NCBI RefSeq assembly: GCF_005047655.1
Contig: NZ_SUKF01000002.1
Coordinates: 186,001 to 250,000 of the forward strand
Length of the DNA stretch: 64,000 nucleotides
Source: Sinimarinibacterium arenosum
GTDB taxonomy: Bacteria > Pseudomonadota > Gammaproteobacteria > Nevskiales > Nevskiaceae
Direction of reading: 5' to 3'
Of the stretch, positions 43,001-63,417 are shown piece after piece. A model generated the notes under the pieces. That model saw only the letters and a program-made list of their open reading frames with translations. It was not told the DNA's origin and searched no databases. Both the position numbers and the translations under genes were made by a program. The first letter of the stretch is position 1; every line of letters starts with the position of its first letter.

Positions 43001-43975
43001 GTGAAACCTGTCGAGAGGATCCTTGTCGTCGTCGATCGTGCCATGCACGAGACGCCGGCGCTGCAGCGCGGCATTGAGCTTGCGCGCAGCGCGAACGCGC
43101 GACTGCATCTGTGTCTGTGCGATCACGATGCGCTGATCGATGCCAGCGCCGACCTGATTCCCCCTCAGCAAGCGCAGCAGCTCAAGGCACACTTCATCGA
43201 GCGCCGCCGCGGCTGGCTGGAACAGACTGCACGGCGACTCATCGCGCAGGGACTCAACGTCCACATCGACAGCCGCTGGGCCCCCACCCTGCATGAGGCA
43301 CTGATTGATCGCGCCCTCGATCTGCGCCCCGATCTCGTGATCAAGGATGTCGGCAAGGACTCGACCCCTGCGCTGTCGCCGGCAGACTGGAAGTTACTGC
43401 GCTTCTGCCCAGCGCCCCTGATGCTGGTACGTTCCCCATCGACACTGTTGCCGCGGCGGATTCTGGCGGCGGTCGACACGACGCAGCGCAGCTCCCAGCT
43501 CAATGATTCCATTGTCGCCATGGCCCAGCAGCTGGGACTGTATGCCAACGCGACGATTGATCTCGCCCACGTCTTCACGCTGCGTCCGGTCGATGACGAC
43601 GTTCCACCCGGCTTGCGCGATCTTCACGAAGACCTGCGCCGCAACGACCACGACACCTTTCTCGAATTTGCATCGCGCCACTCCATTGCGGCCGATCAGC
43701 AATTTCTGCCAGACGGCGATCCAGCCCAGTCGATTGCTGCGCTCACGGCACTGCTGCGCACCGATCTGCTGGTCCTCGGCTCCCTGCACCGCAACTCCGC
43801 GGACCGCCTCTTTCTGGGCACCACCGCCGAGGCGATGATCAGCTGCACGACCTGCGATATCCTGCTGCTGCGCGCTCCGCGCCATACTACAAAGCTCGCC
43901 GAAGTGTTCGACCTGGAGGGATTGCACCGTCGCCAGAGCCTTCTGCAGCGCTCGCTTGTTCCCGTGGAGATCTGA
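43001..43975 (+). CDS. Tandem universal stress protein (UspE-like)
   Basis: A 324-residue protein with two Usp domains (about 1-145 and 150-300). ILVVVDRAMHETPALQRGIE opens the first and ILAAVDTTQRSSQLNDSIVA the second; DLLVLGSLHRNSADRLFLGT is the end of the second nucleotide-fold. The last residues form a charged tail. GTG start with GGAG five bases upstream. It overlaps the following beta-CASP gene by one base (TGATG). Usp proteins of this kind are common FNR/Anr targets under low oxygen. Confidence 0.84.
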   Translation: MKPVERILVVVDRAMHETPALQRGIELARSANARLHLCLCDHDALIDASADLIPPQQAQQLKAHFIERRRGWLEQTARRLIAQGLNVHIDSRWAPTLHEALIDRALDLRPDLVIKDVGKDSTPALSPADWKLLRFCPAPLMLVRSPSTLLPRRILAAVDTTQRSSQLNDSIVAMAQQLGLYANATIDLAHVFTLRPVDDDVPPGLRDLHEDLRRNDHDTFLEFASRHSIAADQQFLPDGDPAQSIAALTALLRTDLLVLGSLHRNSADRLFLGTTAEAMISCTTCDILLLRAPRHTTKLAEVFDLEGLHRRQSLLQRSLVPVEI

Positions 43976-45357
43976 TGCCTGAACTGCAGTTTCTAGGTGC
44001 CTGCGAACGCGTAACCGGTTCGTGTTATCTGCTCAGGACCGAACGGGCCTGCGTGCTGATCGACTGCGGCTTGATTCAAGGCAGCGATGCCGAGGATGCG
44101 CTGAACGCGGCTCCATTTGCGTTCGACGTTGATCAACTGGACGCGGTGATCCTGACGCATGCCCATCTGGATCACTCAGGTCGCCTGCCATTGCTGTACA
44201 AGGCGGGCTACCGCGGCCCGATCTTCACCCATCGCGCCAGCCGCGATCTGTGCCGGATCATGTTGCGCGATGCCGCCTACCTCAACGAGATGGATGCACG
44301 CCTCGAATCGCGCAAGCGCGTCCGGCGCGGTGACGCCCCAGTTGCCCCGCTATATACACAGCAGGATGCCACTGACGCCCTGAAGCTTTTCCGCGGCGCG
44401 CGATATGAAGAGGCCATCAAGGTGGCGCCAGGGGTGGTCGCGCACTTCCGCGACGCCGGCCACATTCTGGGCGCCGCGTTTGTCGAACTCAGCATCGGCG
44501 ACGGCGACAACACGCGACGCATCACCTTTAGCGGCGACCTGGGCAACGGCACGTCGCCGTTGATGCGCGCACCCGAGCGGCCACAGGCCACCGATCTGAT
44601 GCTGCTCGAAAGCACCTATGGCGACCGGATCCATCCGGCGTGGAACCGCACCGTTGAACATCTGCACGAAGTGCTGGATCAAGCCCATGCCGACGGCGGC
44701 ATCGTGCTGATTCCGTCCTTTGCAGTGGGACGCACCCAGGAGATCCTGCTGCTCCTGCACCAGCACTACGAGGACTGGAATCTCGATCGCTGGCGCGTGC
44801 ATCTGGATGGCCCGCTCGGCGTACAGGCGACATCGATCTATGCCCATCACGCCAGATTGCTCGGCGCCGATGCCGTTGAATTCGCGGACCAGCAGTTCCG
44901 TTTGCCGAACATGCAGTTCACGCGCACACCAGGCCAATCGCAGCAGCTCAACAATGCCAAGGGTGGAACGCTGATCATTGCCGGCGCCGGCATGTGCAGC
45001 GGCGGTCGCATCCGCCACCACCTGAAGCATCACCTGTGGAAGCCAAACACCCACGTGCTGCTGGTTGGCTATCAGGCCTATGGCACGCTGGGCCGGCGCC
45101 TGCAGGATGGCGCGCAATCGGTGTCATTGTGGGGCGAGACGATCAAGGTCGCGGCCAAGATCCACACGATTCACGGATTGTCGGCGCATGCCGATGCCAA
45201 CAACCTGTTGCACTGGTATCGTCAGTGCCCGAACCGTCCACGTGTGGCATTGGTGCACGGCGAGCCGCAGGCACAGGAGGCTCTGGCAGGAACGCTGGAA
45301 AGTCGCTGCGGCGCGACGACACTGATCCCGAAACTGGGCGAGCGGATCACGCTCTAG
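43975..45357 (+). CDS. MBL-fold beta-CASP RNA-processing exonuclease-like protein
   Basis: A 460-residue metallo-beta-lactamase with a beta-CASP insert. Zinc motifs: LTHAHLDHSGRLP (HxHxDH), FRDAGHILGAA and SGDLGNG; beta-CASP part SFAVGRTQEILLLLH, then IIAGAGMCSGGRIRHHLKHH and the final IHGLSAHADANNL. This is the Ysh1/CPSF73-like group, which cuts RNA. Co-translated with the Usp gene, so it may be a hypoxia-induced RNA decay factor. Confidence 0.87.
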   Translation: MPELQFLGACERVTGSCYLLRTERACVLIDCGLIQGSDAEDALNAAPFAFDVDQLDAVILTHAHLDHSGRLPLLYKAGYRGPIFTHRASRDLCRIMLRDAAYLNEMDARLESRKRVRRGDAPVAPLYTQQDATDALKLFRGARYEEAIKVAPGVVAHFRDAGHILGAAFVELSIGDGDNTRRITFSGDLGNGTSPLMRAPERPQATDLMLLESTYGDRIHPAWNRTVEHLHEVLDQAHADGGIVLIPSFAVGRTQEILLLLHQHYEDWNLDRWRVHLDGPLGVQATSIYAHHARLLGADAVEFADQQFRLPNMQFTRTPGQSQQLNNAKGGTLIIAGAGMCSGGRIRHHLKHHLWKPNTHVLLVGYQAYGTLGRRLQDGAQSVSLWGETIKVAAKIHTIHGLSAHADANNLLHWYRQCPNRPRVALVHGEPQAQEALAGTLESRCGATTLIPKLGERITL

Positions 45358-45914
45358 CGTCGCTGATCCATCGACGGGCCTTCATCCGCCTGGATATCGG
45401 CAAGTCGATGCAGCTCAACCGGCATCGCCGCCATCCTCCGGTAGATCCGCGACTGCCGTCGCCAATGCCAGTAGTCGAACAGAAACGTCTCCAGCGGACG
45501 CCACATCACGACCCAGCCGACGATGGTCAGTCCGTCGTACAGAAAATTGCCGAGGAGACCTCGCTCGCTGGCATTGCCCAGCAGTTCCGCCACGAGCAGA
45601 CACAAGGCCAGAAAGCCTATGCCGATCAGCAGATTGAAACGCCCCCGGCGTAACTGCTCGCGGGTCTCGGCATCGCGACCGAGCGCGCGGTCGGAAAAGT
45701 AGTGGTGGATTGCATCGCTGACACGCTGCTGCGGATCGATCAGATCGGGCCACTCCTGAAGATAGAGCGCCAGCGTCAATGGAGCGTCATGCGGAAGCTC
45801 CCTCGCCCAATCGACCAAATAGGTTTCCGCGCCGGGTTCCAGATCGCGCTCTGAAAATGGCGAGGGGTCGAGCGAATTAAACAGCTGCTGGATATTGCGC
45901 AGCTGAATCTGCAT
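45354..45914 (-). CDS. Two-helix membrane protein of unknown function
   Basis: A 186-residue protein with a soluble N-terminus (LNNSLDPSPFSERDL-type start, then ETYLVDWARELPHDA) and two hydrophobic segments (LLIGIGFLALCLLVAELLG and FLYDGLTIVGWVVMW). The C-terminus, RPLETFLFDYWHWRRQSRIY, is basic and aromatic. I have no family name for it. It faces the beta-CASP gene tail to tail and overlaps it by four bases. Confidence 0.65.
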   Translation of the reverse strand: MQIQLRNIQQLFNSLDPSPFSERDLEPGAETYLVDWARELPHDAPLTLALYLQEWPDLIDPQQRVSDAIHHYFSDRALGRDAETREQLRRGRFNLLIGIGFLALCLLVAELLGNASERGLLGNFLYDGLTIVGWVVMWRPLETFLFDYWHWRRQSRIYRRMAAMPVELHRLADIQADEGPSMDQRR

Positions 45915-45969
45915 TCGCCCGCGCCCCTCGGCGCTCGTTCCGGTCACCGCGACCGGCCCCAGACTCGGA

Positions 45970-46719
45970 TCAGGCTGCGATCGCCCAATCGCTGCTGATG
46001 CTGCTCAAGCCAACCGGCTCAGCCAGCTCGGTCAATCGTGCGTGATCGCGCACAGTCAAGGTCTTGTCGCGGGATTCGAGCACACCCTGATGCTCCAGTC
46101 GCGTGATGACGCGGCACACCGTTTCGGTCGCCAAGCGCAGGTAATTGCCAATGTCACGACGCGTCATCGGCAGACGGACGCGATCCGATGCGCCGCCCAG
46201 ACGGCTGGCCATCGACAGCACAAACGCGGCGACGCGTTGTTCTGCGGTGTAGTCGCCGGACAGAGACAGAGCAGCCGACAGCTCATGACTGGTGCGCTGC
46301 AGCAGGCGCTGCAACAGAATCGGGGACTTTGTCGCCAGCGCCGCAACCCGAGCGCGCGGAATGACGCAGACCTGCGAGGGTTCGACCGCTGCCGCGCCGC
46401 AGGGATGGCGATCGCGCGCCAGCGCGTCCAAACCCACTAGATCGCCCGGGAGATGGAACCCGCGAATGCGCTCATTGCCATCCTGATCGACGGTGTAGGT
46501 CTTGATGCAGCCGGCACGAACCAGATACAGATTTTCGGCGACGTCACCTGCCGAGAACAGCGCGCCATTACCCGGGAACACCGGCATGTGGGTTTGCACC
46601 GCGTCGTTCCACTGATTCAGCGCCTCCATCGAGACCCCACCAGTGAAACAGCGGCTGCCTGCGGGGCAGATCGAGCAATTGGGCTTGCAGCGCGAGCTGG
46701 GGGCTGAATCGAAGGCCAT
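45970..46719 (-). CDS. FNR/Anr-type oxygen-sensing transcription regulator
   Basis: A 249-residue CRP/FNR protein. Cysteines match the [4Fe-4S] ligands of FNR: Cys15-x2-Cys18-x5-Cys24 and Cys118 (QVCVIP). The effector domain (GDVAENLYLVRAGCIKTYTV) precedes the DNA-binding helix-turn-helix MTRRDIGNYLRLATETVCRV. In the recognition helix, the usual ESR contact reads E-T-V-C-R, with Cys where FNR has Ser212. It should dimerise and bind TTGAT-N4-ATCAA sites when oxygen is low. It lies just downstream of fixJ and upstream of no other minus gene in an obvious operon. Confidence 0.88.
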   Translation of the reverse strand: MAFDSAPSSRCKPNCSICPAGSRCFTGGVSMEALNQWNDAVQTHMPVFPGNGALFSAGDVAENLYLVRAGCIKTYTVDQDGNERIRGFHLPGDLVGLDALARDRHPCGAAAVEPSQVCVIPRARVAALATKSPILLQRLLQRTSHELSAALSLSGDYTAEQRVAAFVLSMASRLGGASDRVRLPMTRRDIGNYLRLATETVCRVITRLEHQGVLESRDKTLTVRDHARLTELAEPVGLSSISSDWAIAA

Positions 46720-46899
46720 GGTGCATCTCCCGGTGAACGTGAGACGCAGATTGATCTTTTTGCACGTCCGGAAACATTCGGACCTTCCGCAGACCCCACT
46801 GGGGGAACTACGTATTCACGGCAACGTCACACTGCCGCCCGTTTTGCTCTATTTGTTTTATTTTCAAAGGCTTGAAGCAAATATTTCCAGCATCACCCG
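46720..46899. other. AT-rich spacer between fixJ and the FNR gene
   Basis: No gene. It should contain the FNR gene promoter; a TTGATC (about 46751) half-site is present without a matching second half. A T-rich block (46849-46866) is close to the fixJ end and may be part of a terminator or the FNR promoter. Confidence 0.35.
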
Positions 46900-47514
46900 T
46901 CAAGCCTGGCGCAGCGTCATAACCAGCTTGACCAGCTGTGCCAACGACCGCACCTCCATTTTCTGCATCACCCGTGCCCGATGCAGCTCAACGGTGCGTT
47001 CGCTGATATCCAGATCCAGCGCGATCGCCTTGTTGGCACCGCCATCGACCAGCATCTGCGCCACTTCACGTTCGCGCGTGGTCAGTGAAGACCACCGCGC
47101 CTGAATCTCATCGGTGCGCTGGAGTTCCGCACGCTCACGCGCATCCTGTTCCAGCGCCTTCTGCACGCGGCGGATCAGATCCTCGTCATTGAACGGCTTC
47201 TGCAGGAAGTCGAACGCTCCGGCCCGCATGGCTTCCACTGCCATCGGCACATCACCATGCCCGGTAATGAAGATCACTGGCAGCGAGCAACGCCGCTCAC
47301 TCAGAACGCGCTGAACGTCCAGACCACTCATGCCTGGCATGCGCACATCGATCACCAGGCAGCCGGGGTGATCGGGCGTGTACTCCCGCAGGAACTGCTG
47401 CGGGTCGTTGAAGGTGCGCGTACGCAGCCCCACACTGCGCAACAGCAAGCTGACGCTGTCGCAGATTGGCTCCTCGTCATCGACAATGAAGACAGTGACT
47501 TCGCGGTCGTTCAC
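46900..47514 (-). CDS. fixJ: FixJ-type response regulator
   Basis: A 204-residue regulator: receiver domain with phospho-acceptor Asp56 ([12 protein letters not shown]), Lys106 (FLQKPF), and a LuxR-type helix-turn-helix ([20 protein letters not shown], then [20 protein letters not shown]). FixJ proteins phosphorylated by FixL turn on microaerobic genes such as fixK/anr. It overlaps fixL by four bases (47511-47514), so the pair is co-translated. Confidence 0.9.
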
Positions 47515-49037
47515 GACAGCTCTCCCTCATCTGCTGCCGGCAGCCGCAGCGCAAATGTCGTGCCGCCGTGTTCATTCAAGAAGTAGCTCAGCTCGCCACC
47601 ATGGGCGGCGGCGATCGATTTACAGATGGACAAACCCAGCCCCATACCCTGCGGCTTGGTGGTGAAAAAAGGCTCGAACAGACGCTGCACGACCGTTGGC
47701 GACAGCCCCGGACCACAGTCTGATACGCGGATCTCGATCCAGTGCAGCTCAGGCGTCAGCGTTTCCAGTGTAATGGCGCCAACAATGCCCGCGTCGTTCA
47801 TCGCTTCCATTGCATTGCGAACCAGATTGAGCACGATCTGCTGGATCTGGATGCCGTCGCCAGAGATCGGGGGCAAATCCGACTCCAGCCGCAAATGGAG
47901 ATCGAAACCGTCGCCGCGCAACTCAAACTCGACCAGGCGCGCGACATCGCGCACCAACTGGTTGCTGTCGAGCAACTTACGCTCGGCATCGGCACGCTTG
48001 GCCAACGCACGCAGCCCGCGGATGACCTGCCCGGCCCGTTCGGCCTGGGTCGCGATCTTTTCGAGAATGCTGAGCATCTCGCCCGCACTGGCCTGGTTGC
48101 CCAGCATCATGCGCCGGCATGCACTGGCATAGCTGGCAATGGCCGTTAGAGGCTGATTCACCTCATGCGCAATGCCACTGACCATCTCACCGAGCGTGCC
48201 GATACGACCAACATGCGCCAGACGATCACGCAGCTCGTCGGCTTCGCGGTTGGCCTCGAACAGCGCAGTACGATCGACGATTTCGCCAATCAGCATCTGC
48301 GGCAGTCCCCGCTCATCGTCAATGACCGCCGCGTAGTGCGTGGCATGGATTACGCTGCCATCCTTACGCAGGTAGCGTAGCTCACAGGTGCAGGAACCAC
48401 CCTCCAGGCTCATGCGCTGGAAGTGCTGCCGTGCAATCGCTCGATCATCGGGATAGATCAGATCGTCGTGGCGCGCACTCAACAACTCGTCGGGCGCATA
48501 GCTCAGCAGCTCCGACGCCGCACGGTTGACCTTGAGCAGATAGCCATCGAGGCTGGTAATGGTGATTGCTGTCGGCGCATGTTCGAACACCAGCCGCAAT
48601 TCCTCCGTACTGCGTCGGAGCTCCTCCTCCTGCCGCTTGCGCTGCGTGATGTCGCGCAGGATGCCGACGTAGCCATGTTCATCGCCGTCAGCAAACTCGC
48701 CAACCGACAGATCTATCGGAAAGGTGCTGCCATCAGCCCGCTGCGCGATAACTTCGCGCCCGATGCCGATGATTCGGGGTACGCCGGTGGCGTGATATCG
48801 ATTGAGGTAGCCGTCATGCTCGTCGCGAAAAGGTTGCGGCATCAACACGTTAACGTTGCGCCCAACAATTTCGGCAGGTCGGTAACCGAAAACGCGTTCT
48901 GCTGCCGCGTTGAAGCGCGTGATATTCCCGCACTCGTCAATCAGCACCATCGCATCAGCTGCCGCATCCAGCAGTGCAGACAGCTGGTCGCTCGAGGCAG
49001 CATGCGCAGAGGAATTCAAAGTCTCCATCGCCATCAT
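47511..49037 (-). CDS. fixL: FixL-type haem-PAS oxygen-sensing histidine kinase
   Basis: A 508-residue cytoplasmic sensor kinase without membrane helices. PAS-1 (about 18-135) keeps the residues of Bradyrhizobium FixL haem binding: His74 and Arg94 are 20 residues apart ([17 protein letters not shown]), matching FixL His200 and Arg220. PAS-2 (145-260) follows. The kinase has His291 ([14 protein letters not shown]), an N box ([15 protein letters not shown]) and G boxes ([18 protein letters not shown]). It should autophosphorylate when haem is deoxy and pass phosphate to FixJ. Hsp20 lies 28 bases upstream in the same direction. Confidence 0.9.
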
Positions 49038-49065
49038 TCTAACGGCGACGGAGAGCCGCCGGCAC

Positions 49066-49503
49066 TCAGGTTACCGTGATTTTTTTGGTCTCAGCCTTGG
49101 TCTTGGCGACCTTGGGCAGGTGCACGGTGACAACACCGTCCTGATAGTCCGCGGAGATTTGCTCGATAGCGACATTCTCCGGCAGCGCGAAACTGCGCGA
49201 AAAACCGCCGTAACTGCGCTCCACGCGATGGTGCTTCTCGTCCTTGTCCTCTTTCTCGAAGCGGCGCTCACCGGACAGCGTCAGAATCCCGTTGTCGACT
49301 GAAATGTCGACATCCTCGCGCTTGACGCCGGGCAATTCACCCTTGATCAGGTACTCGGTCTCCTTCTCGCTAATGTCTACGGCCGGCGCCCAATTGGCCA
49401 TATCCTTGCCCATTTCTGCCGGCATCCCGCGCCCGAAGCCACGACGCAGCGAATGGAACAGGTCATCCATCTCCCGCAAAGGATTCCAGACCACTGGTTG
49501 CAT
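49066..49503 (-). CDS. Hsp20 small heat-shock protein
   Basis: A 145-residue alpha-crystallin-type chaperone: N-terminal [16 protein letters not shown], crystallin domain ([40 protein letters not shown]) and the C-terminal IxI-like tail KKITVT. AGGAG lies seven bases before the ATG. It is upstream of fixL and likely shares its transcript; a perfect FNR box lies 73 bp ahead of its start. Confidence 0.88.
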
Positions 49504-49569
49504 GACAGGTCTCCTGGTGACCCCCCGGATCGGGCAGAAGAGTATTTCCCCGGCGCCGAAGCCTGTTCA

Positions 49570-49583
49570 TTGATTCTGATCAA
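49570..49583 (-). promoter_or_regulatory. Perfect FNR/Anr box upstream of hsp20-fixLJ
   Basis: TTGAT-TCTG-ATCAA matches the FNR/Anr consensus exactly and is symmetric. Its centre is about 73 bp before the hsp20 start. It would let the FNR protein activate hsp20 and, by read-through, fixL and fixJ. Confidence 0.85.
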
Positions 49584-49598
49584 TCGGACCCGCGCCCG

Positions 49599-49612
49599 CT
49601 GACGCGGATCAA
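49599..49612. promoter_or_regulatory. FNR/Anr-like site in the hsp20/deacetylase divergent region
   Basis: Read on the minus strand it is TTGAT-CCGC-GTCAG, the same half-conserved form as at 41486 and 42939. It lies between hsp20 and the histone-deacetylase-family gene and could serve either direction. Confidence 0.5.
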
Positions 49613-49744
49613 CGCATCCGCACATCCAGGAACCGACACTGTGCCGCTTGGCGAGGCGCGTCGATCAGACGATGATGAGATGTACCCCGAACCCTGCAGC
49701 CCAGACACCACCGCACGCGGATATCAATATCTAGAGGAGCCCCC

Positions 49745-50695
49745 ATGCGCGCCAACCTGCCCGTGGCCTGGATCAGCCATCCGGTCTGCAGCCGCCACCA
49801 GATCGACGAAGATCATCCGGAATCGCCACAGCGACTGGCCGCGATCGAGGATCGTTTACTGACCAGCGGCCTCGGCGACTTCGTTTGCCGGCATGAGGCA
49901 CCGGACGCGACCCGCGACCAACTGGAACGCGTGCACGAATCGAGTTACATCGACCACGTTCTGCGCCACCGCCGCATTGGCGACGTTCGCGTCGTGGTCG
50001 ACAACGACACCGCATTCAATCGCTACACCGTGGATGCGGCACTACGAGCCGCCGGCGCCGGTGTTCTCGGGGTCGATCTGGTGATGCGCGGCGAAGCCGG
50101 CCTGGCATTCTGCGCGGTACGCCCGCCCGGCCACCATGCCGAACGCGCACGCACGATGGGATTCTGCTTTTTCAACAATGTCGCCGTTGCCGCCGCGCAT
50201 GCACTCAGCTACGGACTCGAACACGTTGCCATCATCGATTTTGACCTGCACTACGGCAATGGCACGGCTGACATATTCAAAAACGATCCGCGGGTCTTGC
50301 TGCTTTCGACCTATCAGCATCCCCTGTATCCGTACTGGACTGGCGTCCCCGACGCAATCAATCTGATTGACGTCCCGCTCAGTCCATACACCCACGGCGA
50401 AGCTTTTCGAGCCGCCGTACTGAATGAATGGATGCCGGCACTGGAGCGCACCCGCCCCGAGCTGATTCTGGTTTCAGCCGGCTTCGACGCGCACGCGGCT
50501 GATCCGATGGGGGATTTGCGCCTGCAATACGAGGATTACCGCTGGCTTGGCTCGCTGATCAAGGATCTGGGCGAGTCGAGCGCGCAGAACCGCATTGTCG
50601 CGACGCTGGAGGGGGGATACGACCTGACCGCGCTGGCACGCAGCGTTGAAGCATTCCTGACGCCGTTCCTTGGCGGCGAAATGATGCCACTCTGA
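49745..50695 (+). CDS. Histone-deacetylase-family (class II type) amidohydrolase
   Basis: A 316-residue zinc deacetylase. Active-site signatures: RPPGHHAERARTMGFCFFNN, the zinc ligands in IIDFDLHYGNGT and SAGFDAHAADP, and the catalytic tyrosine in LEGGYDL. Bacterial members remove acetyl groups from polyamines, acetoin-pathway substrates or protein lysines. AGGAG lies upstream. It is the first gene of an operon with a Pat-type lysine acetyltransferase, so protein deacylation is a reasonable guess. Confidence 0.86.
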   Translation: MRANLPVAWISHPVCSRHQIDEDHPESPQRLAAIEDRLLTSGLGDFVCRHEAPDATRDQLERVHESSYIDHVLRHRRIGDVRVVVDNDTAFNRYTVDAALRAAGAGVLGVDLVMRGEAGLAFCAVRPPGHHAERARTMGFCFFNNVAVAAAHALSYGLEHVAIIDFDLHYGNGTADIFKNDPRVLLLSTYQHPLYPYWTGVPDAINLIDVPLSPYTHGEAFRAAVLNEWMPALERTRPELILVSAGFDAHAADPMGDLRLQYEDYRWLGSLIKDLGESSAQNRIVATLEGGYDLTALARSVEAFLTPFLGGEMMPL

Positions 50696-50731
50696 TCCCG
50701 ATCCACTGACACTCAGCCCCCCAAGCCACAC

Positions 50732-53107
50732 ATGAGCATCCGCCACCTCGACAGCCTGTTCCGCCCGCGCGGCGTCATTGTCATCGGCGAGCCACAGGAC
50801 GCCCCCTCGGTCGAGCTGCTACGCAGCCTGGACCCGCTGCCGGTCGAACGACGCAGCATGCTCGGCGCCAGTCGCGACGGCTGGACCACAGCACGACGCC
50901 CCTCGGACGTCGTCGACGGCGAACTCGCAGTGGTACTGGATCCCACTGCCATCAACCCTGCAGTGGTCCGCAAACTCGCCGCCCGCGGCTGCCGCGGCAT
51001 GATCTGGGTCAGCGACACACCGGTGCCGGCGCCGGTGCTGCGGGCCGGTCGCGAAGTCACCTTGCGCGTGCTCGGCCCCTACAGCTCCGGCGCCGCGCAC
51101 GCCTACGGCATCGGCGCGTCAGCGTGGCAGCTCCCCGCACCGGGCACCACCGCGCTGATTGCGCAGTCGCGCTCGATTGCCGGTGCCGCGCTGGATTGGG
51201 CGGCGGGCCACGCGCTCGGCTTTTCATGGCTCGCGGTGACCGGCGGCGAAGCCGACGTCGACGTTGGCGATCTGCTCGACTACGCCGCGCTGGACCCCCG
51301 CACCCATGCGGTCGTGCTGCAGCTGTCACGCATCGCCAGTTCGCGAAAATTCATGTCAGCCGCGCGCGCCTGCGCGCGCTCCAAGCCGGTCATCGTGCTG
51401 CAGACCCCATCGCAAGGGGCGGATGGGCAATTGCTCGATCCGGTGATGTCGGCAGCATTCCGCCGTGCCGGCCTGGTCGAAGTCGACCGCGTCACCGCGC
51501 TATTTTCCGCCCTGGCCGCACTGGAGCGTGTCGGCGAAGCCACCACCGGACGCATCGCGGTCATCGGCACCGGCTCCGGCATCTGCCAGCTGGCCCGCGC
51601 TGCGCTGATGCGCGAAGGGCTGACTCCGGGCGCCCCGGGCGACGGCATTGCCGAACGCATCGTCGAGCAGGCGCCGGGCGCGCAGGTTTCCGCAGCCTCG
51701 ATCGACATCGGCCTGGCCGACGACGCGCAGACCGTGGCGGTACTGCGCACTGCGCTGTCGACCCCCGAATTCGACACCGTGCTGTTTGTACGCAGCCCGA
51801 CCCCGGGACGTGACGATGCATTGCTGGCACAGGCGCTGGTCGATTCCGGGCTGCGCGAACGCTTGATCGTGGCGTTCATGGGCCAGGCCCGCACAGCGCC
51901 CGCCGTCCGGATCTGCGCCGAGTCGCGCATCGCTGCGTTCGCCTCCGTGGAGGCGGCCGCCCGCGCGCTGCGGTACCGCCGCGAGCACCGACGCACGCAG
52001 GAAATCCTGATGCAGACGCCCACCCTGGACCCGGTGGTGCACAAGAACGGCGCCCCGCCGAAACTGGTAGCGGCACCGCGCCGGGCCAGTCCACGAACCC
52101 TGACCGCGGAAGAAGCGCAGGCGTTGATGGCGGCCTACGGCCTGCAAGCCGCCGCGTGGATGGGCGGCGAAGGGCGCGGCCTGCGGGTGCGCCTGCGGCG
52201 TCATCCGCAACTGGGCATGCATCTGGAGCTGCGGCTCGATCCAGCGTCGATGTCCGCGCCAACCGTCTATGCCCTGCCGCCGCTGGATGATGTGCTGGCC
52301 GACATCAAGCTCCGTGAAGCGGGTCTCGGCTCGCGCAATGAAGCGCCGCCTGGACTGCGCGTGCGCGACTACGCCACCGCATTCGCGCGGCTGGCGCAGT
52401 TCGCGGTCGAACAGCCCTTGCTGCATGAGGCCGACATCCGTCTGGTGCCGGGCGACGAGATTGCCGAAATCGGTTCCGCGCGCATCCTGGTCGACTGCGA
52501 AGCGCCACCGGAACGCGACCGTCTGGCTTTGGCGCCCTATCCGGCGGAACTTGAACACAGCGCGCTGTTGCGCGACGGCCGCCCCTATCGCATCCGTGCG
52601 ATTCACCCGACCGACGAGCCGGCTCTGATCCGCATGCTGTCGCTGGCAGACCCCGAAGAGATCCGGCTGCGATTCTTCCGCTACATCCGCCAGTTCACGC
52701 ACACCATGGCCGCGCGCATGACGCAGATCGACTACGACCGCGAAATGACGCTGGTTGCCGTGCCGCAGGACGACGACGACACCGTCATCGGCCTGTCGAC
52801 CGTGGTGATGGACCCGGATCTGCAGGAAGCCGAGTACGCCGTGCTGGTGCATCACGATTACGTCGGTCAACGCCTTGGTCGCCAGCTGATGGAGGACATC
52901 CTGACTTACGCCGCCGCGCGCAAGGTGCCTCAGGTCTATGGCGACGTGCTGCTGGAAAACAGCGCCATGCTCGGCCTCGCCCAGCGTCTCGGCTTTACAC
53001 GTCAGCGCCACCCGGACGATCCCGGATGTGTGCGTGTCGTCATCCACCCGCGTCTACCTGGCTCGACTCCGCTATGGATCCGCTCGCTGCTCTCCGCATT
53101 TACCTGA
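50732..53107 (+). CDS. Pat-type protein lysine acetyltransferase (NDP-acyl-CoA synthetase-like plus GNAT)
   Basis: A 791-residue fusion: CoA-binding and ligase-CoA domains of NDP-forming acyl-CoA synthetases (about 1-420), a shortened ATP-grasp-like region (about 450-620) and a C-terminal GNAT domain (about 625-780; AVLVHHDYVGQRLGRQLMED binds acetyl-CoA). The synthetase part lacks the catalytic histidine of active enzymes (the HTGALAG-like segment reads PSQGADGQLLD), as in known Pat/YfiQ proteins, where it is a regulatory domain. Shorter than the usual near-890 residues. It follows the deacetylase gene by 36 bases; the pair would acylate and deacylate proteins. Confidence 0.84.
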   Translation: MSIRHLDSLFRPRGVIVIGEPQDAPSVELLRSLDPLPVERRSMLGASRDGWTTARRPSDVVDGELAVVLDPTAINPAVVRKLAARGCRGMIWVSDTPVPAPVLRAGREVTLRVLGPYSSGAAHAYGIGASAWQLPAPGTTALIAQSRSIAGAALDWAAGHALGFSWLAVTGGEADVDVGDLLDYAALDPRTHAVVLQLSRIASSRKFMSAARACARSKPVIVLQTPSQGADGQLLDPVMSAAFRRAGLVEVDRVTALFSALAALERVGEATTGRIAVIGTGSGICQLARAALMREGLTPGAPGDGIAERIVEQAPGAQVSAASIDIGLADDAQTVAVLRTALSTPEFDTVLFVRSPTPGRDDALLAQALVDSGLRERLIVAFMGQARTAPAVRICAESRIAAFASVEAAARALRYRREHRRTQEILMQTPTLDPVVHKNGAPPKLVAAPRRASPRTLTAEEAQALMAAYGLQAAAWMGGEGRGLRVRLRRHPQLGMHLELRLDPASMSAPTVYALPPLDDVLADIKLREAGLGSRNEAPPGLRVRDYATAFARLAQFAVEQPLLHEADIRLVPGDEIAEIGSARILVDCEAPPERDRLALAPYPAELEHSALLRDGRPYRIRAIHPTDEPALIRMLSLADPEEIRLRFFRYIRQFTHTMAARMTQIDYDREMTLVAVPQDDDDTVIGLSTVVMDPDLQEAEYAVLVHHDYVGQRLGRQLMEDILTYAAARKVPQVYGDVLLENSAMLGLAQRLGFTRQRHPDDPGCVRVVIHPRLPGSTPLWIRSLLSAFT

Positions 53108-57336: not shown

Positions 57337-57813
57337 TCAGCGCCCCGTGGGCCGAGCGCCCAGACCGGCAGTCTGGCGCTGCACCCAGTCGATCAGTCCA
57401 TTCAGACTCATGGCTCCGCTGATGCGGGCCAGTTCCTGTCCCCGATGGAACAGCACCAGCGTCGGAATGCTGCGGATGGCGTAGTTGGCCGCAATCGCAG
57501 TGTTGGCATCGGTTTCCAGTTTGCCGAAGCGCACCCGGGGCTCCATCGCCGCGGCCGCCCGTTCAAACACCGGTGCCATCGCGGTACACGGACCGCACCA
57601 CGATGCCCAGAAGTCGACCACAACGGGCAAATCGCTGCGCAAGACCTGAGTGTCGAAATTTCCGCCATGCAGGGTGATCGGATGCCCGGAGAACAAAGCC
57701 TGGTGACAGCGCCCACAGGCCGGCTTCTGGTCGAGGCGCAGGCGCGGCACTCGATTGATCGAATCACACTGCGGACAGACCACATGAATCCCGGCGTCCG
57801 TCGATTTATTCAT
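57337..57813 (-). CDS. trxC: Thioredoxin 2 (TrxC) with N-terminal zinc ribbon
   Basis: A 158-residue TrxC: zinc-binding cysteines Cys13, Cys16, Cys33 and Cys36 (CPQC, CGRC) precede the thioredoxin domain with active site WCGPC (residues 72-76) and the cis-proline IRSIPTLVLF. It reduces disulfides in the cytoplasm and is often induced by oxidative stress. ATG 57813. Lies 38 bases downstream of the SafE-type gene. Confidence 0.9.
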   Translation of the reverse strand: MNKSTDAGIHVVCPQCDSINRVPRLRLDQKPACGRCHQALFSGHPITLHGGNFDTQVLRSDLPVVVDFWASWCGPCTAMAPVFERAAAAMEPRVRFGKLETDANTAIAANYAIRSIPTLVLFHRGQELARISGAMSLNGLIDWVQRQTAGLGARPTGR

Positions 57814-57851
57814 TTTCGTTTCGCCCAATGCCACGGCGTTCCTCCAAATTC

Positions 57852-58517
57852 TCAGTACAAATGGCACCAGGCGGAAAAGGCCGCCGGATGCCACAACGCC
57901 AACCACGCACTCGTCACGCCCATCGCCACCAGGACGACTGCGCCGGTGCGGCGCATGGCCTGCAGACCACCGGCGTAGGCCACCAAAGCGCCACTGCCAC
58001 CGAGGACCGGCAATGAACCCAGTCCAAATGCCGCCAGCAAGGCGGCGCCAAATACGGCGCTGCCGGACAAGGCTGCCAGCCCCAGGACCGAATACAACAC
58101 GCCACAGGGCATGGCCGCCCACGCCACGCCCTGCATGAAAAGACGCAGGCTGGCCGGCAACGACTGCCATCGCCCTGGAGTCACCGGAGGATGGCAACCA
58201 CCACGGCGACGCTGTGGGCGCCGGTATTGATGCACGCCGACGCCGACCAGCAGCACCGCAGCGGCCAGCTGAATCCAGCGACCCCAGTCAGCCTGCGGCA
58301 GATCGCTCAACAGCAACTGCCCCAATGCCCCGGCAACCGCGCCGAATCCGGCATAGCCCACCACCCGACCGCAATGCAGCAAGGCTGCTGCACGCGCCAG
58401 CGGTACCCGTCCGCGGGTCTGCAACTGCGATACCTGGAACGCACCACACATCAAGCCGCAATGCGGACTGGCAGCGAGGCCGGCGGCGAACAGTGCGGGA
58501 ATGCTGAGTTCGATCAT
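57852..58517 (-). CDS. SafE/COG2836-type membrane protein (cbb3-associated copper handling)
   Basis: A 221-residue protein with six hydrophobic segments, the family motif SPHCGLMCGAF near the start and a second MPCGVLYSVLGLAAL. In many genomes this group sits among cbb3 oxidase maturation genes and is thought to move copper for oxidase assembly. Here it is in the same minus-strand run as the DksA/helical pair and trxC, close to ccoS, ccoI and ccoG. Confidence 0.8.
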   Translation of the reverse strand: MIELSIPALFAAGLAASPHCGLMCGAFQVSQLQTRGRVPLARAAALLHCGRVVGYAGFGAVAGALGQLLLSDLPQADWGRWIQLAAAVLLVGVGVHQYRRPQRRRGGCHPPVTPGRWQSLPASLRLFMQGVAWAAMPCGVLYSVLGLAALSGSAVFGAALLAAFGLGSLPVLGGSGALVAYAGGLQAMRRTGAVVLVAMGVTSAWLALWHPAAFSAWCHLY

Positions 58518-58527
58518 CGGATCCGCA

Positions 58528-58983
58528 TCAGACGTCCTGCAACTGCGCGACGTTGCGCGCCTTCAACCGCTCATCGCCGCGTTCCTGATCGAGCAAGCTG
58601 CGAAACAGCTCGCACACCTGGTCCGACTGACACGTGGCCGTGACGGCTTCGAGTAACTGCACCAGGTAATCGTCAAAAGCTTCGGACAGCACCAGCGCAT
58701 CATCCAGTGTCAGCGCGTCCTTTAGCTGCGGCAGCCGCAATGGGATCGCCTCCAGCTGGGGCAGATACTGCAGCCACTCCTGCATCAGCTTCGAGTTTTC
58801 GGGCGCCCGCTCGAAGGCCCGAACGGACTCGGCGATACGCCGCTCGTGCTCGGCAAGCCATTGCAGCAGCCACTCCACCTTGGTCTCGTCCGCCTCGCCC
58901 GCCATCGCCTCAAACTGCTTTGAAGCACGCTGGTGGAACGTGCGGATGAACTCCAGAATTTCACCGACGTTGCGAATACTCAC
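58528..58983 (-). CDS. Helical protein of unknown function in the FNR-linked operon
   Basis: A 151-residue, nearly all-helical protein ([60 protein letters not shown]). The histidines in the first two helices and its bundle-like pattern hint at a hemerythrin-like or ferritin-like shape, but a full metal set cannot be read. Start is GTG 58983, ten bases after the DksA-like stop. Homologues likely occur in similar islands; no family name is certain. Confidence 0.62.
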
Positions 58984-58993
58984 GGCAGCAAGC

Positions 58994-59320
58994 TCAGGCC
59001 GCCTCGGCGCAAGCGGTGCAGGCCGTCGCCTGCGGGAGCAGCGCCAACCTCCGCATGTCGATCGGCTCACCGCAGACCTCGCAGATGCCATAGGCCCCGC
59101 TTTCAGCACGTTGAATCGCGTGCTCGAACTGCCGCAACTGCTCAGCCGTGGACGGCTCCAGTCGATCCAGCACTTCATCGTTTTCACGCTGCTGCGCTTG
59201 ATCGGCAAAATCCGGAGACACCGGGCCGTCAGCCTGCGTACGGTCACGGTGGATGCGGTCGAGTCGCTCAGCAAGTTCAGCTCGGCGAGCATGCAGTAAA
59301 TCCAGCGTATCAGTGTCCAT
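58994..59320 (-). CDS. DksA/TraR-family RNA-polymerase-binding protein
   Basis: A 108-residue DksA/TraR protein: a long coiled coil ([20 protein letters not shown]), the tip with DFADQAQQ carrying the Asp pair used by DksA to act on the RNA polymerase secondary channel, and a C4 zinc finger (CEVCGEP, then CTAC). Shorter than DksA. It sits downstream of a perfect FNR/Anr box (59386), so it is probably induced at low oxygen and modifies transcription, perhaps with ppGpp. Confidence 0.84.
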
Positions 59321-59385
59321 CTAGTCGCGCCCTCTGGGATGTCTTTATGTGGACATCAGTGTGAGGGGACGGCTGGAATCAGCCA

Positions 59386-59399
59386 TTGATCCACGTCAA
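59386..59399. promoter_or_regulatory. FNR/Anr box upstream of the dksA-like operon
   Basis: TTGAT-CCAC-GTCAA fits the Anr consensus TTGAT-N4-RTCAA. Its centre is about 72 bp before the DksA-like ATG, the same distance seen at hsp20. It lies between the dksA-like gene and ccoS. Confidence 0.8.
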
Positions 59400-59438
59400 A
59401 TCAGTGACGCCACAAGCCTTGCTCGTGCCTTGACGCAC

Positions 59439-59579
59439 TCAAGGCTCATCGTCCGGCATGCGCCGGCCGATCGATTCAAGATCGTCGTACTGCCCCGACT
59501 TGACCGCCCAGATCAGCACGCCTGCTGCAATAGCGACCAGGGTGACGCCCAGGGGGATCAACACAAACAGGATTTCCAT
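59439..59579 (-). CDS. ccoS: CcoS, cbb3-type oxidase maturation protein
   Basis: A 46-residue single-helix membrane protein: MEILFVLIPLGVTLVAIAAG, then VLIWAVKSGQYDDLESIGRR. The hydrophobic helix followed by WAVKSGQYDDLE is the CcoS signature. CcoS is needed for haem/copper insertion into cbb3 oxidase. It overlaps the ccoI stop by one base (TGATG). Because of its small size it is easily missed. Confidence 0.93.
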   Translation of the reverse strand: MEILFVLIPLGVTLVAIAAGVLIWAVKSGQYDDLESIGRRMPDDEP

Positions 59580-61813
59580 CAGGCACACACCTCGGTGAGG
59601 GGGCTTTCGCCGGAATGCGACACACTGCCAAGTACACGGTCAGCCGCCCCCAGACGCAGCGCATTGCCCACGACCAGCAGCGACGACAGCGACATGCCAA
59701 GCGCCGCCATCCAGGGCAACAGCACGCCACCCAGGGCCAGCGGCAGCACCGCCAGGTTGTAGATCACCGCCCATGCAATGTTCTGACGAACGCGACGATC
59801 AGCCAAAGTGGCGATGCGTCGGGCCGGCGCCAGTGCCGCCAGCGAATCGCCCACCAGCAACAGGTCGGCTCGGGACTGCGTCAGTGCCGCGCCACGCGGC
59901 ATCGCGCAGGAGACATCTGCAGCAGCCAGGAACGGCGCGTCATTGATGCCATCTCCGACCGCGAGGACGACATGACCTTGCGACTGCAGTTCACGCAACC
60001 GTGCCAGCTTCTGCTCCGGCGTCTGCCGCGCGCGCACGCGCTCGATGCCGAGCTGCCGCGCCAGGTCCTGCGCCGGCGCGTCGGCGTCACCGGTCAGCAA
60101 TTCGATCGCAATCCCCTGCGCACGCAACGCGTCCAGCGTCGCCTCCGCATCGGGGCGGATCGTCGACGACAGTCTGAACGTCGCAAGACACTGTTCACCG
60201 CGATGCAACGCAACCAGCGTACTGCCGTCCTGAGCCTCCGGCGCCGACGCAGCCAACGCGCCCAGCCGATAGTCCTGCCCGTCGATGCGCCCCTTCACGC
60301 CACGACCCACTTCCTGGATCTGCTCCAGCGCGAACAGCCGGCTGGGAACGGCAGAAAATGCACGCGCGATCGGATGCGTCAATCCGCGTTCCAAGGCTGC
60401 CGCCAGCGCAAGGCAGGTGTCACGCTCGACATCCGCCTGTACCGTGACTTCGGAGATCGACAGCTCGCCCATCGTCAATGTGCCGGTCTTGTCGAACAGC
60501 ACGGTGTCGACTGCAGGCAATCGCGCCAGTACTTGCGGTCGTGCCGCCAGGACTCCGATCGCCGCCAGGCGCGATCCTGCTGCGGCAATTGCCGCCGGGA
60601 CCGCCAATGAGAGTGCACACGGACAACTGGCGACCAGTACCGCCAATGCCACGGACAGCGCGTGATCGATCCCGGCATGCCACCACAGCGCAGCACCGGC
60701 CGACGCCAGCACCAGCACGGCCAGAATGAATACACCGGCAAGACGGTCGGCCAGAATCTGGAACCGCGGCCGTTCAGTCTGCGCACGCTGCAACAGATGA
60801 GTGATCTGCGCCAGCCACGTTGCCGCACCGACACCTTCGGCCGTCAAACGCAGCGGGCTCTGGCCCAGATTCAGGCTGCCAGCAAGCAACCGCTCCCCTG
60901 CATGATGCACGACCGCCCGCGATTCTCCGGTCAGCAACGCCTCATCGAGCTCGGCCGCAGTGTCCAACAGCACGCCGTCAACCGGTACCGATTCTCCCGG
61001 CCCCACCACGATGCGCTCACCCGCCTGCAGCACACTGATCGGCACGGTCTCAATGCCCGCGGCGGTCTCGCGCTGGGCTGTCAGCTGCCGACTGCCAGCC
61101 AGACGCCGAAGGCGTTCGCCTGCCAGCGCTCGCGTGCGGCTTTCAAGAAAGCGACCGATCAGCAAGAACATCACGAACATCGTCGCGGTATCGAAATAGG
61201 TTTCACCGCTACCCGCAAGCGTGCGCCAGACCGACGCGCCGTAAGCGATCAAGATCGACAACGCCACCGGCACATCCATATTCAGACTGCGCGCCGAAAT
61301 CGCATGCCAGGCACCACGCAGGAAAGGCCTTCCCGCATAGAAAACCGCCGGCGTTGCGACGACCCATTGCGACCAGCGCAGCAATTGATCAATGCGCGGG
61401 TCAATCACGCCGCCATCGGTGTAGCTGGGCCATGCCAGCATCATCACCTGCATTGCACACAATACGGCAACACCGATGCGCGCAAGTGCATCGCGACGCT
61501 CGCCGACCATGGCGTTGAGGCCTCGGTCCTGCGCCAGCACCTGCGGCTTGAATCCGGCCCGATCCAGCCGCTCGAGCACCGATGACAGTTGCGTCTGATC
61601 CGGATCGAAACGGAACTCCAGCGTTCGGCTGGTCAGACTGATGCGCGGATCGGCGCAGTCTTCGGCCAGCAGCTTGCGAATACGCCCGACACAAGCCGCG
61701 CAGTGCATGCCGTCGACACCGATCAAGACCTCTCGGCGCCCACCAGCGACTGGCGCACTGACGGTGTCACGCAGCTCGTCACCGTCATAGACGGCATAGG
61801 CAGAGGCAGTCAT
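59579..61813 (-). CDS. ccoI: CcoI/FixI copper-transporting P1B-ATPase
   Basis: A 744-residue P-type ATPase: N-terminal heavy-metal domain with GMHCAACVGRI, eight or so helices including the SCPCAL motif, the phosphorylation site DKTGTLT, and the hinge GDGINDAP. FixI/CcoI ATPases move copper to the periplasm or membrane for cbb3 CuB. Start ATG 61813 (MTASAYAVYDGDELR). It lies between the small helix protein and ccoS. Confidence 0.92.
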   Translation of the reverse strand: MTASAYAVYDGDELRDTVSAPVAGGRREVLIGVDGMHCAACVGRIRKLLAEDCADPRISLTSRTLEFRFDPDQTQLSSVLERLDRAGFKPQVLAQDRGLNAMVGERRDALARIGVAVLCAMQVMMLAWPSYTDGGVIDPRIDQLLRWSQWVVATPAVFYAGRPFLRGAWHAISARSLNMDVPVALSILIAYGASVWRTLAGSGETYFDTATMFVMFLLIGRFLESRTRALAGERLRRLAGSRQLTAQRETAAGIETVPISVLQAGERIVVGPGESVPVDGVLLDTAAELDEALLTGESRAVVHHAGERLLAGSLNLGQSPLRLTAEGVGAATWLAQITHLLQRAQTERPRFQILADRLAGVFILAVLVLASAGAALWWHAGIDHALSVALAVLVASCPCALSLAVPAAIAAAGSRLAAIGVLAARPQVLARLPAVDTVLFDKTGTLTMGELSISEVTVQADVERDTCLALAAALERGLTHPIARAFSAVPSRLFALEQIQEVGRGVKGRIDGQDYRLGALAASAPEAQDGSTLVALHRGEQCLATFRLSSTIRPDAEATLDALRAQGIAIELLTGDADAPAQDLARQLGIERVRARQTPEQKLARLRELQSQGHVVLAVGDGINDAPFLAAADVSCAMPRGAALTQSRADLLLVGDSLAALAPARRIATLADRRVRQNIAWAVIYNLAVLPLALGGVLLPWMAALGMSLSSLLVVGNALRLGAADRVLGSVSHSGESPLTEVCA

Positions 61814-61838
61814 GGGCAGATCGGATGACGCATGGGCT

Positions 61839-62003
61839 TCAACGCCCGATGATGTGCTCGGCACCCGGCACCGGGGTGAAGCCCTGTTGCACCGCCAGCA
61901 CCGTGGTCACGGCACCGGCAATCAGTACGGCCAGCGGCAAACCGATCAACAGCAACAGCTCAACGACCGGTTTCGATTTCAGAACGGATTTATCAGTGCT
62001 CAT
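61839..62003 (-). CDS. Small single-helix membrane protein in the ccoH position
   Basis: A 54-residue protein: MSTDKSVLKSKPVVELLLLI, then GLPLAVLIAGAVTTVLAVQQ and a short tail. One transmembrane helix with a charged N-terminus. It lies between ccoG and ccoI, exactly where ccoH/fixH normally lies, and starts within the last codons of ccoG; the ATG at 62003 has GGAGC seven bases upstream. It may be a shortened CcoH: its helix resembles the FixH anchor, but the periplasmic domain is missing. Confidence 0.7.
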   Translation of the reverse strand: MSTDKSVLKSKPVVELLLLIGLPLAVLIAGAVTTVLAVQQGFTPVPGAEHIIGR

Positions 62004-63417
62004 TGTCATGCTCCGAGTCGTGACGCTCACTGGGCGCAAGGAAGGTTGCAACGTGATCATCGTGATGAGCGTCGGCATCTACAGCCTGCACCGTGAACTT
62101 CAGCTTCGACACACCCGGATGCGGATCGTCTGCGCGTGCGGTAATGGTGACCGATTCATGCGCGCCGGCAGCCGCGTCGAATTCCGAGGGGTCGAGTGAC
62201 ACATCCAGATCGTCGTCTTCGCCGTGCTGGTTGACGAAGACGGCACTCAATCGGTAGCGATGCGGCTGGTCGCTCTTGTTGGACAGCTTGATCTGGTAGA
62301 CGTTTTCCACGCCACCATCAACCATTTCGCGATACAGCTGCTTGCGGTCACGTACGACGTCAAAGCTGATCGGACTGCGGAAAAGCACCAGTACACCGAA
62401 TCCGGCACAGACCAGCAGCCAGATCACGCCATAGCCGATGGCGCGCGGGCGGAAGATATGGAAGTGCCCGGTTTCGTCGTGATGATCGCTGGTATAGCGA
62501 ATCAATCCACGCGGCTTGTTGACCGAATCCATGACGTCATTGCACGCATCGACGCAGGCCGCACAGGCGATGCACTCGTACTGCAGGCCATTTCGGATAT
62601 CGATGCCAACGGGGCAGACCTGCACGCAGATCGAGCAGTCAATGCAGTCACCGGCAGCCTTGCCCTCTTTCTTCGCAGCGCTCTTGCGCGGCTCGCCGCG
62701 CTTTTCATCGTAGGCGATGATCAGCGTGTCCTTGTCGAACATTGCCGACTGGAAGCGCGCGTAAGGGCACATGTACTTGCACACCTGCTCCCTGAGAAAG
62801 CCGGCATTGCCCCAGGTCGCGAAGCCATAGAACACGCTCCAGAACAGCGCCCATCCGGCAAGATTGAAATGCAGCGCATCTGCGAACAATTGTGGAGCGG
62901 GCACGAAATACGCGACAAAGGTCAGACCGGTATACAGTGCGAACATACCCCACAGCAGATGCTTGGCACTCTTGCGCAGGATCTTCTGTGCACTCCAGGG
63001 TGCGCGGTCGAGCTTGATGCGCGCGTAGCGGTCGCCTTCGGTGTAACGCTCGATCCACATGAACGCTTCTGTCCACACGGTCTGCGGGCACGCATACCCG
63101 CACCACAGGCGGCCTCCCACCGTTGTAAAGAAGAACAGCGTGAACGCCGCCATCGCCAGCATCGCGGTGAGCAGGTAGAAGTCCTGCGGCACCAAGGTCA
63201 AGCCGAAAACGTGAAAGCGTCGGTGCGGCAGGTCGAACAGCACGAACGGGGTACCGTTCCAGCTCAGCCAGGGCGTGACGTAGTAAAAGCCCAGCAACGC
63301 GAACATCGCGATGTTGCGCAGTCGCGCGTAGCGTCCACGGACCTCACGCGCGTAAATCTTGGCAGCCGACTGATAGAAAGTGACGGTCTGCTCGGGAGTC
63401 GAAACGGGCTTGTTCAT
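61993..63417 (-). CDS. ccoG: CcoG/RdxA cbb3-associated iron-sulfur protein
   Basis: A 474-residue membrane protein with several N-terminal helices, CGYACPQTVWTE between helices, and two ferredoxin-like [4Fe-4S] motifs (CIDCSICVQVCPVG and CIACAACVDACNDVM). A C-terminal periplasmic Ig-like FixG domain follows. CcoG is a copper(II) reductase needed for cbb3 oxidase assembly. Downstream of ccoP and a small two-helix gene; its 3' end overlaps the next gene. Confidence 0.93.
   Translation of the reverse strand: MNKPVSTPEQTVTFYQSAAKIYAREVRGRYARLRNIAMFALLGFYYVTPWLSWNGTPFVLFDLPHRRFHVFGLTLVPQDFYLLTAMLAMAAFTLFFFTTVGGRLWCGYACPQTVWTEAFMWIERYTEGDRYARIKLDRAPWSAQKILRKSAKHLLWGMFALYTGLTFVAYFVPAPQLFADALHFNLAGWALFWSVFYGFATWGNAGFLREQVCKYMCPYARFQSAMFDKDTLIIAYDEKRGEPRKSAAKKEGKAAGDCIDCSICVQVCPVGIDIRNGLQYECIACAACVDACNDVMDSVNKPRGLIRYTSDHHDETGHFHIFRPRAIGYGVIWLLVCAGFGVLVLFRSPISFDVVRDRKQLYREMVDGGVENVYQIKLSNKSDQPHRYRLSAVFVNQHGEDDDLDVSLDPSEFDAAAGAHESVTITARADDPHPGVSKLKFTVQAVDADAHHDDHVATFLAPSERHDSEHDNEH

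Follow-up and report, generated by a model that had tools for sequence, protein, structure and literature searches.

How is a FixL-FixJ oxygen-sensing pair wired when a small heat-shock protein gene lies before it, an FNR-type regulator gene lies behind it and a perfect FNR-type box stands upstream? Rhizobia supply most of the known cases in which a haem kinase and a CRP/FNR regulator act in series, and the FixK at the receiving end of those cascades works without oxygen sensing by a cluster. Our preferred reading of the locus studied here, to which we give a probability of roughly 0.55, is a two-sensor low-oxygen module in which FixLJ would switch on fnr1 and the product of fnr1 would switch on hsp20, with read-through into fixLJ closing a positive loop.

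Layout of the locus and its two predicted oxygen sensors

In the 64-kb window (the whole stretch of DNA that was analysed), hsp20, fixL and fixJ run head to tail on the minus strand, and the FNR-type gene lies downstream of fixJ. The gene hsp20 (49066..49503, minus strand; Pfam HSP20, 7.3e-25) encodes a small heat-shock protein of 145 aa and stands directly upstream of a gene for a FixL-type histidine kinase of 508 aa (47511..49037, minus strand) with a haem PAS, a second PAS, HisKA and HATPase domains. The gap between them is 28 bases, as the first-pass annotation had claimed, with coordinates and strands in agreement; the start codon of fixL is uncertain, several in-frame ATG/TTG candidates being present. 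Its further claims that fixL overlaps fixJ and that an FNR-type gene lies just past fixJ were borne out as well: the overlap measures 4 bases, fixJ (46900..47514, minus strand) encodes a response regulator of 204 aa with a receiver and a LuxR-type HTH, and after a gap of 180 bases follows fnr1 (45970..46719, minus strand), which encodes a four-cysteine FNR-type regulator of 249 aa. On the other side of hsp20, a divergent histone-deacetylase-like gene (49745..50695, plus strand; Pfam Hist_deacetyl, 3.5e-81) shares the intergenic region that holds the FNR-type box. Among the closest named records over FixL were those of a Nevskiales bacterium (67%), a Nevskiaceae bacterium (59%) and several Solimonas species (56-57%), records of the source genome possibly being excluded.

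The FixL-type PAS is supported as a predicted haem O2 sensor. The first PAS matched solved FixL haem domains (best E 2.1e-35), and the His/Arg pair that had been claimed for it was recovered as H74 and R94, which align with those domains and are invariant in 14/14 aligned sequences, window included. The protein also carries the HisKA and HATPase transmitter, with fixJ linked. Since its score against the rhizobial FixL model NF041777 (350.4 bits) fell below the cut-off of 850, we name it FixL-type and do not file it as the rhizobial equivalog. FixJ has both the receiver and the GerE (LuxR-type) HTH and scored 233.6 bits against the FixJ model NF006900 (cut-off 255); among PDB entries it matched FixJ at 3.8e-47, with 1yio, which we take to be StyR, ranking higher at 4e-52. 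From what is known of the family, the haem PAS of FixL would lose O2 and the kinase would then phosphorylate FixJ.

The second sensor would be FNR1 itself. Its best PDB match was an "FNR type regulator" (5.7e-43, versus 1.8e-23 for FixK2), and all four cluster cysteines are present, aligned with those of that structure; in FNR these four cysteines are the ligands of the cluster. Scores reached 164.5 bits against the FNR model NF008365 (cut-off 228) and 95.3 bits against the FixK model NF050806 (cut-off 300). An assignment of FNR1 as FixK was rejected on the presence of the cluster cysteines and the missed NF050806 cut-off. The recognition helix of FNR reads E-x-x-S-R, with Ser at that position in E. 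coli FNR. The corresponding helix, TETVCR in FNR1, keeps Glu and Arg and has Cys for Ser in FNR1 and in 10/10 distinct FNR1-like proteins aligned; Ser stands at this position in the remaining FNR-type proteins of the alignment. Because of this Cys for Ser and the missed NF008365 cut-off, the gene is called FNR-type rather than FNR. Judging from the four cysteines, FNR1 would be active only with an intact iron-sulphur cluster, at low O2. The Cys in FNR1-like recognition helices weighs against the preferred reading; as an observation apart, it could make a redox-sensitive reading head.

A FixJ-type site upstream of fnr1

The half of the circuit with the stronger support, a FixJ-type site before the FNR-type gene, went unnoticed in the first-pass annotation. 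Comparison of the stretch after fixJ among relatives revealed a conserved element that in the window reads TACGTAGTTCCC (46803..46814, minus strand) and continues to CCGAATGT at 46774-46781. Published FixJ sites include the SELEX-derived GTAMGTAG and GTAGTTTCCC as well as TAAGTAATTTCCCTTA of S. meliloti, and published FixJ elements lie at about -64 and -33, with a CSNAATWT motif at -33 (PMC4999443). The site before fnr1 fits these published FixJ sites, and CCGAATGT, which begins 33 bases after the start of that site, agrees with CSNAATWT in 7/8 positions. FixJ of R. palustris is likewise reported to bind the fixK promoter, which contains GTACGTAG (PMC13327599).

The pattern TACGTANTTNCC matches the element in the window and had no match in 100 shuffles of the window, and TACGTANTTCCC occurred as a single exact copy in the 4.54 Mb genome, located in the fnr1 promoter. 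Across relatives, TACGTANTTNCCGCA with up to 2 mismatches was found within 250 bp upstream of 35/39 FNR-type genes (60 shuffles: mean 0.02, max 1), namely 20/21 FNR1-like genes (at least 45% identity) and 15/18 more distant FNR-type genes. These 39 loci comprise 31 with an assigned locus and 8 seen near fixLJ, and are not all of the 46 listed matches; duplicates L055 and L137 were dropped, and the misses were L134, L170, L174 and L176. The predicted step from FixJ to fnr1 is well supported by conservation and is the best-supported arrow of the predicted circuit: phosphorylated FixJ would bind TACGTAGTTCCC at 46803-46814 and turn fnr1 on. Over much of the family a four-cysteine FNR-type gene seems to be directly under FixJ, so that the output there should need both sensors.

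A FixJ regulon beyond fnr1 was considered and rejected, as TACGTANTTCCC with up to 1 mismatch matched 11 times in the genome and its reversed control 29 times. The element was also seen before FNR-type genes in genomes without a FixL match at 1e-60 (L167, L169, L172, L173, L175, L178 and L179); G003, which is among the genomes without such a match, has a weaker kinase-domain match (2.3e-51).

FNR-type boxes upstream of hsp20 and fixL

The perfect FNR-type box TTGATTCTGATCAA (49570..49583) is the sole exact copy in the window, and the claimed distance of 73 bp to hsp20 is correct if counted from the box centre to the ATG. FNR-type boxes exceed chance in the source genome: perfect boxes numbered 16 in 4.54 Mb versus 0 for the reversed pattern, and the relaxed pattern TTGAYNNNNRTCAA 41 versus 5 for its reversed control. 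A weaker copy, TTGATCCGCGTCAG (49599..49612, minus strand; 1 mismatch to TTGAYNNNNRTCAA), lies 29 bp upstream of the perfect box, and relative G043 has a tandem pair as well. At promoters activated by FNR in the class II manner, the box is centred near -41.5 with a -10 element downstream. In the window the -10-like AATACT (49541..49546, minus strand; 4/6 to TATAAT) follows the box by 23 bases on the minus strand, a spacing that would put the box centre near -42 of an hsp20 start at about 49534; a sigma-70 consensus scan of 45900-50800 found no promoter pair. The box lies at an activating distance and is a predicted activating site of the hsp20 promoter, where FNR1 would bind 49570-49583 and activate hsp20 from about -42.

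Which FNR-type protein would act at this box? The source genome has a second four-cysteine FNR-type gene, L134 (35% identity), with two FNR boxes upstream, and the regulator at the hsp20 box may be this protein and not FNR1. In G043, which has the gene order of the window, FNR1 is the only FNR-type gene at 1e-20 and boxes number 34 versus 4 reversed; this single FNR-type gene together with the box excess favours FNR1 as the protein that would act at the hsp20 box. As for L134, one of the misses for the FixJ-type element, it is likely autoregulated and outside the FixLJ arm. Box counts above the reversed control were found in 58/58 genomes, and the excess was rejected as proof of a single regulator, being present even in genomes without an FNR1 match at 1e-20; G042, for example, has no such match, yet has 28 boxes versus 0 for the reversed pattern.

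We then asked of the family set how often such a box precedes hsp20 or fixL. Within 58 genomes, 26 had a FixL match at 1e-60 and 21 a near full-length FixL, partial matches (G009, G023, G047, G049 and G050) being left out of the latter set; start codons were set by alignment, so that distances in relatives are approximate. An exact TTGAYNNNNRTCAA lay within 300 bp upstream of hsp20 or fixL in 11/21 genomes (1000 shuffles: mean 0.01, max 1). As a local control, a box was present in 20/155 ORF-upstream regions of 16 of the same neighbourhoods, a figure that includes fixL and other likely FNR targets. No exact box was found within 300 bp of hsp20 or fixL in the other 10/21; six of these ten are of the window's own genus and have a thioredoxin-like gene just upstream of fixL (6/6 tested). 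The genomes without a box and the local control both weigh against the preferred reading.

The chaperone itself is a less constant part of the locus. The gene hsp20 stands between box and fixL in 3/21 genomes, the window (G000), G043 and G052, the latter two again with a box before hsp20. Two relatives from the genus of G052 illustrate its loss: G055 retains a 32-aa remnant of the hsp20 start in its place and G051 has lost it wholly, while in both the box is still there, along with a matching AGTCTA stretch at promoter distance, and fixL is next downstream. In a Steroidobacteraceae record (L112), hsp20 and fixL are divergent, and no box was found between them. The chaperone link of the sensor locus, proposed from the window, where hsp20 does precede fixL, is therefore not general; the locus offers a case of a chaperone gene gained or lost while the control box stayed.

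Retention of the box in G051 and G055 despite the loss of all or most of hsp20 speaks for the box serving fixLJ. For G051, on the other hand, the retained box could instead serve the divergent deacetylase gene, and the same might be said more widely, the box serving the divergent deacetylase/acetyltransferase genes either alone or in addition to hsp20. The deacetylase gene does lie across the box in the window, G043, G052, G051 and G014, and in G051 its start is about 60 bp from the box (by eye). In the window, however, about 168 bp lie between its ATG and the box centre, and no -10-like hexamer is seen at activating spacing on that side (by eye), so that the hsp20 side fits better; we hold such a role to be improbable.

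Beside these results, in the region 49745-53107 the deacetylase-like gene precedes a CoA-ligase-like/GNAT acetyltransferase gene, and the two are possibly a protein acetylation pair; G043, G052, G051 and G014 also carry this pair next to fixLJ, whether or not hsp20 is present. A DksA/TraR-like gene (58994-59320, minus strand) is preceded by TTGATCCACGTCAA at 59386-59399, the one other relaxed FNR-type box that the window contains; the centre of this box lies about 73 bp before the gene.

A probable start of fixL in the gap and the sign of any feedback

If FNR1 activates hsp20, would fixLJ be activated with it? The first-pass annotation placed hsp20, fixL and fixJ in one operon, but the end of the 28-base gap carries a -10-like element, TAGAAT (49036..49041, minus strand), which overlaps the first fixL ATG. 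Hexamers with at least 5/6 matches to TATAAT were found just before fixL in 8/21 genomes (shuffles: mean 1.55, max 6 in 1000), compared with 2, 0 and 0 of 21 when the windows were shifted upstream; a plain count of 4/6 forms gave 10 of the remaining 13 genomes. In G000, G043, G055, G009 and G002, an ATG follows 6 or 7 bases after the hexamer, a leaderless-like arrangement (by eye). TAGAAT is likely a promoter of fixL itself, and the message from it would perhaps be leaderless. Such a family-enriched element before fixL suggests that fixLJ is independent of the hsp20 promoter. A separate start between hsp20 and fixL, which the first-pass annotation had named as grounds against its operon, is thus favoured by the sequence, although an extra start does not prevent read-through.

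A hairpin around the fixL start (49022..49054, minus strand; z -3.7) encloses TAGAAT and may hamper translation from the long transcript. The feature is weak: it is present in G000 and G043 and absent in G052. The G043 copy has two doubly changed pairs, and covariation as support was rejected as too weak with two sequences, since 2/14 pairs changed on both sides is matched by 117/500 shuffles. The hairpin is also terminator-like, and was rejected as an intrinsic terminator on its weak T tail and the lack of a T run in the G043 copy; a terminator scan of the region found 2 sites versus 3.1 expected in shuffles.

These features lend themselves to an account without any loop, in which FNR activates hsp20 alone, fixLJ is expressed from its own promoter in the gap, and the neighbourhood is a shared low-oxygen island. 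The excess of -10-like hexamers immediately before fixL and its disappearance in shifted windows, the hairpin that G000 and G043 have where fixL begins, and the absence of hsp20 from 18/21 genomes all fit it. We nevertheless put it below even odds, though it is a serious candidate, on the following grounds: i) the 28-base gap holds no convincing terminator; ii) G051 and G055 retained the box after hsp20 was lost; iii) six further genomes have the box directly before fixL. In the preferred loop, basal fixLJ expression would come from the promoter in the gap, and read-through of the 28-base gap from hsp20 would add to it, which would be the weakest step of the mechanism.

The position of the box in some relatives raises the opposite sign, that is, negative feedback in which FNR lowers fixLJ at very low oxygen. 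In G019, G020 and G024 (L141, L058 and L142), among the matches listed, the box stops 6 bp short of a TACAAT upstream of fixL, a position at which FNR should be expected to repress; moreover, repression of fxkR9 via an anaerobox has been suggested in R. leguminosarum (PMC7888657). In the window, by contrast, 23 bases separate the box from the hsp20 -10-like element, which is an activating spacing, and more than 500 bp separate it from that of fixL; we hold negative feedback to be improbable. From the arrangement in G019, G020 and G024, the sign of any FNR feedback on fixLJ may differ within the family.

The positive loop can be drawn in a fuller form: haem FixL-FixJ and the iron-sulphur FNR would close it together, FixJ reaching FNR directly and the chaperone riding on the return arm, with fixLJ made from two messages, a long FNR-driven one in which the hairpin holds the fixL start, and a short one that lacks the 5' arm and is perhaps leaderless. 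In all these particulars together it is doubtful. If true, a closed loop would give a sharp low-oxygen switch with memory. The overall reading of the first-pass annotation is partly supported, by the box at an activating distance, the FixL-type haem PAS, the neighbouring four-cysteine FNR-type gene and the boxes found in 11/21 genomes; that fixLJ would be expressed from the hsp20 promoter is the less well supported part.

Likeness to known cascades, and neighbouring genes

The locus appears, from its genes and sites, to vary the FixLJ to CRP/FNR cascade in a manner particular to the Solimonas family: most loci covered have a FixJ-type site directly before a four-cysteine FNR-type gene, and a few members add an hsp20 unit with its box ahead of fixL. 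With the classical FixLJ-FixK chain of rhizobia and Caulobacter it has in common a haem FixL, FixJ, a FixJ-type site before a CRP/FNR gene, boxes of the TTGAT-N4-ATCAA type and possible feedback on fixLJ. It differs in that hsp20 stands between box and fixL here, and in that its CRP/FNR partner has the FNR cysteines, FixK being described as without a cluster (PMC4999443). Feedback on fixLJ is not unprecedented, loops having been predicted in Caulobacter and R. leguminosarum: control of fixJ by FixK was predicted in C. crescentus, C. segnis and Caulobacter sp. K31 (PMC4999443), and in R. leguminosarum 3841 the haem sensor hFixL and FnrN act in series by way of an intervening FixK, and a negative loop has been suggested (PMC7888657). 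The hFixL-FxkR-FixK/FnrN system of that strain is like ours in its haem and FNR-type sensors in series and its suggested anaerobox feedback (PMC7888657). In contrast, FxkR is not a FixJ homologue, whereas here FixJ appears to reach a four-cysteine FNR-type gene directly.

In Burkholderia dolosa, FixLJ drives fixK (PMC5234846), whose product is a homologue of Anr2 (PMC9104464), so that, as here, FixLJ drives an Anr-like regulator; the hsp20-fixL linkage and the FNR box before fixLJ found here are not described in the available text on B. dolosa. Likewise, titles and abstract openings of the literature covered, which takes in few subscription journals, gave no hsp20-fixL linkage or FNR box before fixLJ in the family. 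In some members, FNR boxes seem to lead back to fixLJ, and their positions suggest different signs, which makes the design of an oxygen switch comparable within one gammaproteobacterial family.

A link between oxygen sensing and chaperones has counterparts elsewhere. The mycobacterial DosR dormancy regulon has a haem sensor kinase linked with universal stress proteins as well as a small heat-shock protein; unlike DosR, the kinase here belongs to a different family and acts with a different regulator, and the likeness is one of analogy only. The gene hspC2 of S. meliloti we take to be a small heat-shock protein gene. It is listed among FixJ-controlled genes (PMC13327599). In B. cenocepacia, the low-oxygen locus likewise includes genes for universal stress proteins and for a heat-shock protein, and the universal stress proteins of DosR are mentioned in the same source (PMC6127331).

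Two further neighbourhoods in the window deserve record. The gene at 43975-45357 encodes an MBL beta-CASP protein and adjoins a universal stress protein gene; its best NCBIfam match was type VII CRISPR Cas14 at 377.8 bits (cut-off 800), with aCPSF1 next at 300.4 (cut-off 580.2), below the cut-off in both cases. Genes for thioredoxin-like, DsbD-like, heavy-metal P-type ATPase and CcoG proteins occupy 57337-63417, beginning about 8 kb from fixL, and relatives of the P-type ATPase and CcoG genes are found shortly upstream of fixL in L056, L062, L137 and L138.
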